From an uncultured Lachnospiraceae bacterium (GTDB lineage Bacteria > Bacillota > Clostridia > Lachnospirales > Lachnospiraceae), in the NCBI GenBank assembly GCA_902783775.1, contig CACZSI010000004.1, positions 1 to 35,566 on the forward strand: a stretch of 35,566 bases of DNA. Direction: 5' to 3'. Numbering within the stretch: the first letter of the stretch is position 1; every line of letters starts with the position of its first letter. Under the pieces are notes generated by a model that was not told the DNA's origin, did not search any database, and saw only the letters and a program-made list of their open reading frames with translations. Below, one piece after another: positions 12,713 through 15,924 of the stretch. Made by a program: the position numbers and the translations under genes.

Positions 12713-12746
12713 AATAATACCCTCCGTTTCCAATAATTCTTCCTCA

Positions 12747-12774
12747 ATAATACCACAAAAAACTTTGTATTTAA
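12747..12774 (-). promoter_or_regulatory. Promoter of the lipoprotein gene
   Basis: On the minus strand, TTAAAT (12769-12774) and TATTAT (12747-12752) are 16 bases apart, with TG one base before the -10 (extended form). Transcription would start about 30 bases before the ATG at 12712. Its -35 overlaps the -35 of the opposite promoter. Confidence 0.5.
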
Positions 12775-12792
12775 AGGAAAATGTGTTATAAT
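12765..12792 (+). promoter_or_regulatory. Promoter of the structured leader and ATP-grasp operon
   Basis: TTGTAT (12765-12770) and TATAAT (12787-12792) are 16 bases apart, with TG one base before the -10. The expected transcription start is near 12799, at the 5' edge of the folded leader. No other promoter-like sequence lies between the leader terminator and the first gene at 12948. Confidence 0.65.
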
Positions 12793-12797
12793 ATCCA

Positions 12798-12921
12798 ATG
12801 TAGTACCTACATACTTATTACCCATTTTATGGGAATGAACCGCTCCTAAGGTTCATTTAAGTATACTAGCATATTTTTCAGTCCAGAACGGTTAAGGCAA
12901 GGGGGCCCTAACCGTTCTTTT
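12798..12921 (+). ncRNA. Structured leader RNA ending in an intrinsic terminator
   Basis: About 120 nt before the ATP-grasp operon fold well by eye. Arms at 12811-12817 and 12858-12864 (7 pairs) close a junction holding two hairpins. The first is CCCAT/ATGGG (12821-12833, 3-base loop) and the second has 8 pairs (12834-12841 with 12850-12857, 8-base loop). The hairpins abut with no spacer. A competing 5' hairpin, ATGTAG/CTACAT (12798-12812), overlaps the closing stem by two bases. After 20 unpaired bases comes the terminator described next. The layout suits a riboswitch or attenuator. It matches no class I know; the purine riboswitch also has a three-way junction, but its loops and conserved core are absent. 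Confidence 0.6.
12885..12921 (+). terminator. Leader terminator before the ATP-grasp operon
   Basis: Ten bases at 12885-12894 pair with 12909-12918 around a G-rich loop, followed by a short T-run (12918-12921). It lies 27 bases before the first gene of the operon. Either transcription is conditionally stopped here or the RNA is made separately. Bases AACCG in the upstream hairpin (12838-12842) could pair with CGGTT of the terminator's 5' arm (12889-12893), a possible but short antiterminator. Confidence 0.75.
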
Positions 12922-12947
12922 CGTTAAAGAAAAAAGGAGGAATTAGT

Positions 12948-13820
12948 ATGAGAAATGGATGGCTTATTGTAAATGGATTTCTAACAGGAGAGAAATTCAC
13001 TGAAATATATGACATGCTAATTGAAGCAGGAAAGAAGTACGATTGTAATTTAAGAGTATTAACTAATGATCAGGTTTTATCTATATTGCCTATATCCGAT
13101 GATTCGGTGGAGTGGAGAAGTATACCGGATTTTGTAATCTTTTGGGATAAGGATGTAAGACTAGCTATGGCATTAGAGGCGGAGGGCTTTAGATTATTTA
13201 ATAGCGCCGATGCCATAATGGACTGCGATGATAAGGCTAGAACTTTTTTAAAACTTAAGAATAAAGGGTTTAAGATGCCTAAAACTTATGCGGCACCTCT
13301 TAATTTTAATCAGCCATATCAGGAGTTTGCCTTCCTTATGCAGATAGAAAAAAATCTAGGATATCCTTTTATTATAAAAGAAAACTGTGGATCCTTTGGC
13401 CGTCAGGTTTATATGGTAAGCGATTGGAATAAGGCAGTTAAGACAATTAATAAAATCGGTCACAATGACTTTATTATGCAGGAGTTTGTGGAGCATTCTA
13501 GTGGAATGGATGTGAGACTCCAGGTGGTGGGAGACAAGGTTGTCACTGCTATGAAGCGAACCAATGACAATGATTTTATTGCCAATGTAACTAACGGTGG
13601 AAAGATGGAAAAATACGATCCTTCCAAGGAAGAAATCGACCTAGCCCTAAGGGTGGCAAAGGAATTAAAGCTAGATTTCGCGGGAGTGGATGTTTTATTT
13701 TCTCCGGATGGACCAGTGCTTTGTGAGGTTAATTCTAATGCTCACTTTAAGAATATTTATGATTGCACAGGGGTAAATGTGGCAGAGGATATTATTAAGC
13801 ATATTATTAATTCAATTTAA
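12948..13820 (+). CDS. RimK-like ATP-grasp ligase (first of two)
   Basis: This 290-residue protein looks like a RimK/glutathione-synthetase-type ATP-grasp enzyme, which joins a carboxylate to an amine through an acyl phosphate. The N-terminal half (1-95) is a pre-ATP-grasp domain, followed by the nucleotide part. Signatures are IIKENCGSFGRQVYMV (glycine loop), MQEFVEHSSGMDVRLQVVG, KRTNDNDFIANVTNGGK, and a metal-binding end CEVNSNAHFKN. The substrate is not readable. GGAGG precedes ATG, and it heads a five-gene operon controlled by the folded leader. A ligase that adds amino acids to a protein, peptide or polymer is possible. Confidence 0.8.
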   Translation: MRNGWLIVNGFLTGEKFTEIYDMLIEAGKKYDCNLRVLTNDQVLSILPISDDSVEWRSIPDFVIFWDKDVRLAMALEAEGFRLFNSADAIMDCDDKARTFLKLKNKGFKMPKTYAAPLNFNQPYQEFAFLMQIEKNLGYPFIIKENCGSFGRQVYMVSDWNKAVKTINKIGHNDFIMQEFVEHSSGMDVRLQVVGDKVVTAMKRTNDNDFIANVTNGGKMEKYDPSKEEIDLALRVAKELKLDFAGVDVLFSPDGPVLCEVNSNAHFKNIYDCTGVNVAEDIIKHIINSI

Positions 13821-13835
13821 AGGGATAAAATGTAA

Positions 13836-14660
13836 ATGAAAAAGGGATGGCTTATTTATAATAAGGTGGATGTAAATAGAAATGAATATATGATAAATCG
13901 CCTAATAGATTTTTTTAAAAGTAACCATATTGAGCTTAAACTTATTAGTTATTCTGAAGGTATTAACTTAGAAAATGAGGCGATAAAGTTAGCCGGTAAT
14001 AAAGTAGACTTTGTAATAAACAGAAGTAGATTTTATGAATTTTCCGATGCTTTCGAAAAACAGGGTGTTAAGGTTTTTAACAAGGCAAGAACAACTAAAA
14101 TATGTAATGATAAGTTTAAGACATACAAGGCTTTAGTCGGAGTGGTAGATTTTATGCCTACATCTTTTAAGAATGAGGTAATCTATAGCGGAATTAAAGA
14201 TGAAATAGACTATCCTTTTGTAGCTAAATCCCTAGATGGTCACGGAGGAGAAGAGGTTTATCTTATAAAAGAAAAGTCTGATTTAGAAGATTTAAAAAGA
14301 GATGATTTATTGCACCAAAAGCTAGCTTCTAATGAAGGAATTGATGTTAGGTTTTATATTTTAGGAAATGAGATTGTAGCAGCAGTAAAGAGGGAAGCTT
14401 ATAAAAGTTTTAAAAGTAACTATAGCTTAGGCGGTAAGGTAAGTGAATATCTGCCCTCCAAAGAAGAAAAGTTTATGATTAAAAAGATACTAAAGGTTAT
14501 TGATATCGACTACGGCGGCATTGATTTTATCTATCACAATAACCGTCCGGTTTTTAATGAAATCGAGGATGCTGTGGGAGCAAAAATGTTGTATCAAACA
14601 TCAAAAATCGATATAATAGGTATGTATTGTGAGTATATTCTAAGTCGTATCCAGACTTAG
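13836..14660 (+). CDS. RimK-like ATP-grasp ligase (second of two)
   Basis: The 274-residue protein shares its start (MKKGWLIYNK against MRNGWLIVNG) and ATP-grasp layout with the preceding gene, so the two probably arose by duplication. Signatures are PFVAKSLDGHGGEEVYLI, EGIDVRFYILGNEIVAAVKR, SNYSLGGKVSEY and FNEIEDAVGAKM. The final metal motif here is NEIED instead of the usual E-V-N-S of the first copy, so activity may differ. It starts 15 bases after the first gene, with a weak AGGGAT site. The pair may act on successive steps or as a heteromer; this is inference. Confidence 0.78.
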   Translation: MKKGWLIYNKVDVNRNEYMINRLIDFFKSNHIELKLISYSEGINLENEAIKLAGNKVDFVINRSRFYEFSDAFEKQGVKVFNKARTTKICNDKFKTYKALVGVVDFMPTSFKNEVIYSGIKDEIDYPFVAKSLDGHGGEEVYLIKEKSDLEDLKRDDLLHQKLASNEGIDVRFYILGNEIVAAVKREAYKSFKSNYSLGGKVSEYLPSKEEKFMIKKILKVIDIDYGGIDFIYHNNRPVFNEIEDAVGAKMLYQTSKIDIIGMYCEYILSRIQT

Positions 14661-14678: not shown

Positions 14679-15221
14679 ATGAACATTGTAAAGAGATTTT
14701 ATAAGCATTTATGGACAATAACTAAACATAGGCATATCGTGATGATGAATTGCTTTAAAACTGGGATTTTTCTTCAGGGACTAAAACATGACCTGTCGAA
14801 ATATTCTATTTGTGAGTTTGTAAGTGGTGTGAAGTATTACCAGGGTGATAAAAGTCCTCATGTAATGGAGCGAAATATTAATGGATATTCCATGGCCTGG
14901 ATGCACCATAAAGGAAGAAACAAGCATCATTACGAGTATTGGGTGGATGTTAATCCTAAAAGTCGAGTTTACGAGCCGGTGGAAATGCCAAAGAAGTATT
15001 TAGCAGAAATGTTTTGCGACAGGGTGGCAGCCAGTCGTGTTTACAATGGAAAAAACTATAAAAAGGAAGATTCTCTTAATTATTTTTTAAGGGCTAAAAA
15101 TAATATTAGAATGCACGAAAATACCAGAAGAGATTTAGAGTTTCTTCTTAGAATGTGCGCTAAAGACGGGGAGGATGCCACATTTAAATATATTAAAGAG
15201 AAATTAAAAAAGGAAAAATAA
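14679..15221 (+). CDS. DUF5662 family protein
   Basis: A 180-residue soluble protein with many conserved His residues: KHRHIVM, LKHDLSKYSICEF, MAWMHHKGRNKHHYEYW and an R-M-H-E-N segment. This fits the DUF5662 family. The 'H-D-x-S-K' core resembles a metal-binding HD-like site, but no activity is established to my knowledge. It is 18 bases after the second ATP-grasp gene and 1 base before the TarI-like gene, which suggests co-transcription. Confidence 0.75.
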   Translation: MNIVKRFYKHLWTITKHRHIVMMNCFKTGIFLQGLKHDLSKYSICEFVSGVKYYQGDKSPHVMERNINGYSMAWMHHKGRNKHHYEYWVDVNPKSRVYEPVEMPKKYLAEMFCDRVAASRVYNGKNYKKEDSLNYFLRAKNNIRMHENTRRDLEFLLRMCAKDGEDATFKYIKEKLKKEK

Positions 15222-15222
15222 T

Positions 15223-15924
15223 ATGATTTTTGTTGAGATTGTAGCTGGTGGAATAGGCAGCAGAATGGGAAAGGACATCCCTAAGCAGTATATTAAAATT
15301 AATGATAAACCTATAATTATTCACACCATTGAAAAGTTTTGTTATCACCCTAAGGTGGATAAATTAGCGGTACTTTGTCCTAAGGATTGGATGGAGTATA
15401 CTGAGGATTTAATTAAAGAATTTATTGGTGATTCAGAAAAAATCGTGGTGTTAGAGGGGGGCGATACTAGAAATGAAACAATGATGAATGGCATCGATTA
15501 TTTTGAAAAGATAAGTAACGAAGAGAGAAATATTTTAATTACTCATGATGCGGTTCGTCCTTTTGTCACAAAAGAGATTATCGATGAAAATATTAATTGT
15601 GCAATGAAGTATGATGCCTGTGATACTGTAATTCCAGCTACTGACACTATAGTGGAAAGTAAGGATGGAGTGGTGATTAGCTCAGTGCCAGATAGAAGTA
15701 CTCTATTTCACAGTCAGACACCTCAGACTTTTGAGATGTCTAAGTTAAAGAAATATTATAATAACTTAAGTGATATTGAAAAAGAAGCTATGACTGATGG
15801 CGCTAAAATTTTTAGATTTAATAATGATAATGTTTATCTGGTTAAGGGCGATGGAACTAATATTAAGGTGACATATCCTCACGATTTAATATTGGCGAAA
15901 GCTATACTGGATAGTAATAAATAA
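15223..15924 (+). CDS. tarI: TarI-like ribitol-5-phosphate cytidylyltransferase (or IspD)
   Basis: The 233-residue nucleotidyltransferase has VAGGIGSRMG and PKQYIKI near the N-terminus, THDAVRPF in the centre, a TDTIVESKDG segment, QTPQTF, and VKGDGTNIKVTYPHDL at the end. TarI makes CDP-ribitol for wall teichoic acid; IspD makes CDP-methylerythritol for isoprenoids. I favour TarI from features I recall in that group: CPKDWMEYTEDLIKEF, the LSDIEKEAMTDGAKIF stretch, and S-x-PDRS preceding the Gln-Thr-Pro. No TarJ reductase is adjacent, so an IspD role cannot be ruled out. It lies in the ATP-grasp operon, not in the wall-polymer locus 8 kb on. Confidence 0.75.
   Translation: MIFVEIVAGGIGSRMGKDIPKQYIKINDKPIIIHTIEKFCYHPKVDKLAVLCPKDWMEYTEDLIKEFIGDSEKIVVLEGGDTRNETMMNGIDYFEKISNEERNILITHDAVRPFVTKEIIDENINCAMKYDACDTVIPATDTIVESKDGVVISSVPDRSTLFHSQTPQTFEMSKLKKYYNNLSDIEKEAMTDGAKIFRFNNDNVYLVKGDGTNIKVTYPHDLILAKAILDSNK

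Follow-up and report, generated by a model that had tools for sequence, protein, structure and literature searches.

Between a divergently oriented gene and the gene for a RimK-like ATP-grasp ligase (AG1) of an uncultured Lachnospiraceae bacterium lies a leader of about 120 nt; what kind of RNA, if any, does it encode, and how might it act on the ligase gene? The stretch analysed here (the window) comprises 35,566 nt. The original prediction, a structured leader with a terminator before an ATP-grasp gene, was partly supported by our analysis of the window and its relatives. In two related bacterial groups, judged from sequence comparison, a short conserved structured RNA appears to open the mRNA of the RimK-like ligase gene. 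The divergent gene 5' of the leader resembles a small lipoprotein gene by eye.

Structure of the leader in the window

The fold energy of 12798-12947 was -42.9 kcal/mol, compared with a mean of -30.3 kcal/mol for shuffled sequences (z = -3.5), and none of 200 shuffles folded as well. Promoter, fold and 3' hairpin were all found at the positions originally claimed (Table 1). Folding of 12800-12884 also returned the secondary structure that had been drawn, with a closing stem of 7 pairs (12811-12817 with 12858-12864), a junction strand of 3 nt, two abutting hairpins of 5 pairs (12821-12833) and 8 pairs (12834-12857), and a short 5' hairpin. When the 5' domain was folded alone, 0 of 200 shuffles were as good for the window and 1 of 200 for genome G282; that of G297, from a second genus, did not stand out from its shuffles (z = -0.92), of which 37 of 200 equalled or bettered it. 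The 3' hairpin of the window consists of 10 outer pairs and a 3-pair top, and 27 nt separate the conserved CUUU from the AG1 start codon. Of the terminator proposed before AG1, the hairpin and its distance from the gene were thus confirmed, and the U tract proved modest. A motif scan did not report this terminator, probably because of the scan's 8-nt loop limit. The window's genome carries a single copy of the leader.

Table 1 Features of the leader and of the genes downstream of it in the window
Feature	Position	Strand	Basis or remarks
Predicted promoter	12765..12792	+	-35 TTGTAT (12765-12770), N16 to TATAAT; extended -10 TGTTATAAT (12784-12792)
Constant predicted RNA 5' end GUAGUAC	12800..12806	+	Invariant in 16/16; pairing possible with UACUA(A/G)C, 12864-12870
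Closing stem of 5' domain	12811..12864	+	12811-12817 with 12858-12864; comparison of 16 sequences
Optional hairpin 1	12821..12833	+	Missing from 9/16
Core hairpin, constant CUCCUA in loop (loop 12842-12849)	12834..12857	+	Covariation
Constant 3' strand and linker, GUAUACUA(A/G)CAUAUUUUUCAGUCC	12861..12884	+	16/16 identical except one A/G position
3' terminator-like hairpin, top loop AAGGGG (12899-12904), constant 9-pair stem	12885..12918	+	16/16
Short U-rich tail	12919..12926	+	4-6 T in 8 across 16 sequences
Shine-Dalgarno-like AGGAGG of ligase gene	12935..12940	+	Sequence
RimK-like ATP-grasp ligase AG1, directly downstream of leader	12948..13820	+	Pfam RimK 8.4e-38; TIGR00768 above cut-off
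Second RimK-like ATP-grasp protein AG2	13836..14660	+	Pfam RimK 7e-20; below TIGR00768 cut-off
DUF5662 protein	14679..15221	+	Pfam 2.6e-35
Probable D-ribitol-5-phosphate cytidylyltransferase	15223..15924	+	NF001183 9.7e-93, above cut-off

Distribution of the leader

Of the 23 genomes of the window's genus, 14 (its own included) carry the leader, as do all three of the second genus; with that of the window, there are 16 distinct sequences. The orthologous RimK-like ATP-grasp gene followed in all 15 distinct cases whose contigs reach so far. Most of these relatives are metagenome assemblies, and they belong to two genera only.

Several searches contributed to this set. A DNA search of 397 genomes of the family at E 0.01 matched 25, three of them true (the window's own genome, G282 and G297). 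Five of the 22 discarded genomes were inspected and rejected (L005, L006, L007, L014 and L025), and the 17 others were rejected by coordinates, as only the query end near the ribosome-binding site (query base 115 onward) had matched. A pattern scan of named genomes yielded 36 stretches; 15 were homologues, from assemblies labelled Lachnospiraceae, Eubacteriaceae or Eubacterium, and 21 were discarded because the surrounding sequence does not fit the leader. Model searches with stricter filters matched five of the 397 family genomes (three true) and seven of 392 genomes of the order (four true), the two samples overlapping, and uncovered no true member outside the two genera. Rows L136, L145 and L146 were rejected after inspection, and G172 and three extra weak rows of G297 on score alone. 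The search pattern partly fixes the linker and could exaggerate its constancy, but all 16 sequences were also recovered by BLAST or model, pattern-free; no locus of the genus found by BLAST lacked the pattern. A strongly diverged leader could have escaped the searches. Viral contigs gave no matches to a 22-nt pattern and seven to an 18-nt pattern, none in a leader context.

Covariation and conserved anatomy

Comparison of the leaders of orthologous loci, a check proposed with the original prediction, revealed a conserved element with covariation among the 16 distinct sequences. Both-sided changes occurred at six pairs of the whole structure (matched by 0 of 500 shuffles), and in the core hairpin stem they affected four of the five counted pairs around a CUCCUA that is constant in all 16. 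Paired cells amounted to 97.9%, compared with at most 48.8% for slid partners, a control that according to a tool warning favours a structure derived from the same sequences. Four of five covariation measures were matched by 0 of 500 shuffles, where the tool warns that kinship of the sequences inflates the control; the fifth, further pair types, was no better than shuffles (206 of 500). All 16 share, without any change, the GUAGUAC with which the RNA is predicted to start, the CUCCUA within the second hairpin's loop and the nine outermost pairs of the 3' hairpin. In the closing stem, 95.4% of cells were paired, one pair had changed on both sides and four cells at one end were unpaired; the second genus, with its three sequences, is poorly aligned there. 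The potential pairing of GUAGUAC with UACUA(A/G)C lies beyond the reach of covariation, since GUAGUAC is invariant.

Hairpin 1 was present in seven sequences and absent from nine. The three-way junction is therefore optional, and the proposal that it forms the core of the leader was rejected; without hairpin 1, the 5' domain folds as one long hairpin. The core rather appears to consist of the 5' GUAGUAC, the covarying CUCCUA-loop hairpin, the constant linker and the terminator-like hairpin.

Search for a switch

Two routes of switching had been suggested for the window, through the 5' hairpin GUAG/CUAC and through pairing of AACCG with the 5' arm of the terminator. Each of these elements is confined to the window among the 16 sequences, and neither suggestion survived the comparison. 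A systematic search for partners of the 5' arm of the 3' hairpin found no upstream pairing stretch of at least 5 bases common to more than one of the 16. The commonest upstream partner of the 3' arm was AGAGU/GUUCU, with one G-C pair, in seven. No conserved antiterminator helix was found in the 16 sequences. Since no competitor for this arm is shared, a trans-acting factor is at least as well indicated as an RNA aptamer, as far as sequences can tell.

Two candidate pairings were rejected. In every one of the 16 sequences, an alternative hairpin from RNAalifold, AAGUAU/AUAUUU, was less favourable than the main fold, by 1.7-7.3 kcal/mol. Its cost was 1.7-4.5 kcal/mol in the seven members with hairpin 1 and 2.5-7.3 kcal/mol in the nine without, and because of this difference it would be no uniform switch. 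Judged by eye, the second genus (GAGGUG) does not keep a pairing between the CUCCU loop and the Shine-Dalgarno sequence of the ligase gene itself.

These results bear on a metabolite riboswitch, in which the constant nucleotides of the 5' domain, the linker and the G-rich loop would form a pocket and the ligand would alter termination. The covariation, the location upstream of an enzyme gene and the variable, optional stems surrounding constant loops and strands would suit such an RNA. However, nothing conserved competes with the 3' hairpin, AAGUAU/AUAUUU does not serve as a uniform switch, and the leader has one gene context, two genera and no Rfam match; we regard a riboswitch as distinctly unlikely.

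The constant 3' half

Between the genera, mean identity reached 95.4% over the 60 nt that run from GUAUACUA to CUUU (12 x 3 = 36 pairs, 93.3-96.7%; L082 with its truncated AG1 left out), while in the same pairs it was 55.7% for the AG1 proteins and 54.1% for the RNA's 5' half. The energy of the 3' hairpin was -16.6 to -19.1 kcal/mol in all 16 sequences. This hairpin varies at its top only, where one pair changes on both sides and three sequences lack a top pair. A plain terminator stem is free to change in pairs. Here the sequence of the 3' stem itself, beyond pairing, is held constant, from which we infer a sequence-specific partner. Indeed, a near-constant 3' half amid a drifting protein and a drifting remainder of the RNA suggests that a specific partner reads it.

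The same constancy could be expected of a DNA site, for example an operator or recombination site made of the inverted repeat GAACGGTTA/TAACCGTTC, with the RNA structure being incidental. The repeat is perfect over 9 bp and invariant in all 16 sequences. However, the upstream hairpin covaries around its constant loop, the linker is constant though not symmetric, and no second full-length copy of the 60 nt turned up in 8 genomes searched at E values up to 10, which makes this explanation highly improbable.

In all 16 sequences, the CUCCU loop can pair over 5-6 bases with the G-rich 3' loop, partly using bases of the hairpin's top pairs; in the register as drawn, one pair is lost in two sequences. 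A rough estimate suggests that runs of 5 contiguous pairs are no rarity between loops of this kind, and the contact falls outside the evolutionary test because both loops are nearly constant. A two-hairpin attenuator could be built on it, in which the anti-Shine-Dalgarno-like CUCCU and the Shine-Dalgarno-like AAGGGGG terminator loop would dock on each other and a ribosome- or elongation-linked factor would compete for them. We consider this very doubtful; if true, it would tie how strongly the RimK-type ligase is expressed to the cell's translation state.

Promoter and leaderless relatives

An extended -10 element, TGNTATAAT, is located 6-7 nt upstream of GUAGUAC in all 16 sequences. A stricter promoter scan missed the leader promoter, whose -35 fits in 3 of 6 positions only. 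Of the 19 listed loci, among which identical leaders recur, 17 lie on contigs that extend to AG1; in these the 3' hairpin and the gene are about 18-658 nt apart, with large gaps of about 258-658 nt in some species. A promoter-like site within the gap was seen in one of the 19 loci (L004).

AG1 is present in all 23 genomes of the genus, and the leader is dispensable, as nine of them do without it. The leader model detected no leader in these nine, nor in any of 27 AG1 loci that were examined in other genera of the family. Orthologs without a leader, which according to the original prediction would refute it, therefore exist, although the leader is under strong constraint within the two genera that have it. 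In the nine leaderless congeners, an extended -10 is followed by 18-33 nt to the AG1 start codon; it reads TGATAGAAT in eight, with TTGAAT at 16 nt, and TGTTATAAT in one, with a poor -35. The leader is thus present or absent between apparently the same promoter and gene, which indicates that this promoter is AG1's own and that the leader is part of the AG1 mRNA. Such membership favours action in cis, and a second role as a small RNA is possible.

The main rival to the attenuator proposed below is a trans-acting small RNA derived from the 5' UTR, with the ligase gene living on readthrough. The leader has the parts for it, namely a promoter of its own, a hairpin whose CUCCU seed loop could bind Shine-Dalgarno sequences, a U-rich linker and a terminator-like hairpin. 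The C-rich loop and the U-rich linker are constant, the constraint on the 3' sequence exceeds that on structure, and some species tolerate the large gaps between hairpin and gene. However, the ligase gene keeps its place behind every distinct leader whose contig extends to it, and leaderless congeners carry a similar promoter at the gene. In addition, the 3' 60 nt, used as query in place of the seed loop, gave no convincing second copy or target in 8 genomes (the weak matches L174 and L162 were inspected). We judge a dedicated small RNA unlikely, if worth keeping in mind.

An AG1 tree was computed from 52 of 54 rows, leaving out L088 (a duplicate of L034) and L132 (leader-bearing, with a truncated AG1). 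Both leader-bearing genera and the nine leaderless congeners form a clade (support 98/94), and the AG1 of the window falls between two leaderless lineages (95/89 and 94/71). At least two changes are needed among the labelled rows, and well-supported branches force just one of them. The simple history would be a single gain of the leader with two losses.

Comparison with known RNAs

The search against Rfam 15 gave no match for the window, in line with the leader having been taken as an undescribed one, and a lax search of 12740-12960 gave eight sub-threshold matches only. The T-box family was not among the matches of either search. Loci of six relatives gave none with fast filters; these zeros are no proof, since the fast filters had missed an element in locus L101 that passed the threshold, as the only match, in a lax search of the L101 leader and gap. 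The element (L101:1593-1717) sits behind the 3' hairpin of the leader, in the gap that precedes AG1, and corresponds to Clostridiales-1 RNA (RF01699; 52 bits, cut-off 48). Similar-looking elements with repeated tails were seen by eye in the same gap of L070 and L086. In a DNA search with the gap element, four of six genomes matched, nearly all at this locus; the two matches elsewhere in G282 are 32 nt long.

RsaE and RoxS are small RNAs of Firmicutes with C-rich loops. The leader resembles them in having a C-rich loop that could pair with Shine-Dalgarno sequences and a terminator-like hairpin of its own, but its position is fixed in the 5' UTR of one gene, and RsaE appeared in the lax search solely as a sub-threshold match on the opposite strand (14.3 bits, cut-off 79). 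The stretch CAGUCC(A/G)GA resembles part of what we take to be the PyrR site consensus. Unlike in PyrR-binding leaders, this stretch forms the linker and the foot of the 3' hairpin, no pyrimidine gene lies downstream, and Rfam yields no match.

The rimP-leader, in the available text of PMC2965389, is likewise a 5' leader whose hairpin, there a terminator, has a highly conserved stem sequence, mostly with no visible antiterminator, which its authors took as a sign of a protein. It is described there as widespread and upstream of rimP-nusA-infB; its stem carries a GGGc/gCCC motif, and larger conserved elements are missing (PMC2965389). The present leader instead lies upstream of a RimK-like ligase gene, is found in two genera, and has a second, covarying hairpin and a constant linker before its terminator-like hairpin. 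The crcB and pfl motifs, as far as PMC2864571 describes them, share with it a conserved structured 5' domain, followed here by a terminator-like hairpin and there by a terminator hairpin. In candidates of that type the terminator often overlaps the motif (PMC2864571), whereas here we found no conserved alternative pairing between domain and 3' hairpin, and a single gene context. Clostridiales-1 RNA is also listed as a candidate RNA in the available part of PMC2864571. Among the titles and abstract openings listed, none describes this leader, and in the literature searched nothing joined riboswitch, ATP-grasp and Lachnospiraceae. The tables of PMC8040213, which on the portion available reports thousands of gut RNA candidates, could contain the motif.

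Genes downstream of the leader

By sequence, the nearest solved relatives of AG1 are RimK/LysX-type ligases, and AG1 and AG2 appear to form a common ligase pair. AG2 follows AG1 in the window and in 23 of 27 leaderless loci of other genera (L029-L056 without L034); in five congeners (L113, L117, L120, L121 and L122) it is inverted and convergent with AG1. Many of the leaderless AG1 genes of other genera lie directly 3' of a gene whose end, by eye, we take to resemble FtsK/SpoIIIE. DUF5662 accompanies AG1 and AG2 in several loci, and its name was absent from the literature searched. The product of 15223-15924 is IspD according to Pfam, yet scores above the NCBIfam cut-off for D-ribitol-5-phosphate cytidylyltransferase. 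Such an enzyme would fit teichoic-acid-like genes that were noticed by eye further right in the window. A gene for a HIT protein is also among the downstream genes.

Proposed mechanism

A structured RNA lies between promoter and gene and is conserved with the gene, as expected of an attenuator. We consider it fairly probable, with considerable room for doubt, that the leader attenuates transcription in cis and that a trans-acting factor reads its constant 3' half. From the one predicted promoter, an RNA starting at or near GUAGUAC would fold the CUCCUA-loop hairpin, pass the constant linker and reach the terminator-like hairpin ahead of the gene. By default the 3' hairpin would form and part of the transcripts would stop there. 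The factor, recognising the constant linker together with the 5' arm and the G-rich loop, would choose between stop and readthrough. It may be an RNA-binding or elongation-factor-like protein; another RNA seems less likely. The complementary CUCCU and AGGGG loops may pair and dock both hairpins. A factor is preferred over an RNA antiterminator because no conserved helix competes with the 3' hairpin and because sequence constancy goes beyond pairing; the published case for a protein at the rimP-leader is a precedent for this reasoning (PMC2965389). Against the attenuator speak the short U tract, the one covariation measure that did not exceed shuffles, the poor showing of the second genus' 5' domain in folding, the large gaps before AG1 in some species and the nine of 23 genomes of the genus that do without a leader.

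The leader represents a probably regulatory RNA family that is absent from Rfam and whose gene target in Lachnospiraceae is clear. Relatives that naturally lack the leader but have a similar promoter provide a ready-made control. The putative partner, if found, would tell what controls a common pair of RimK-like ligases.
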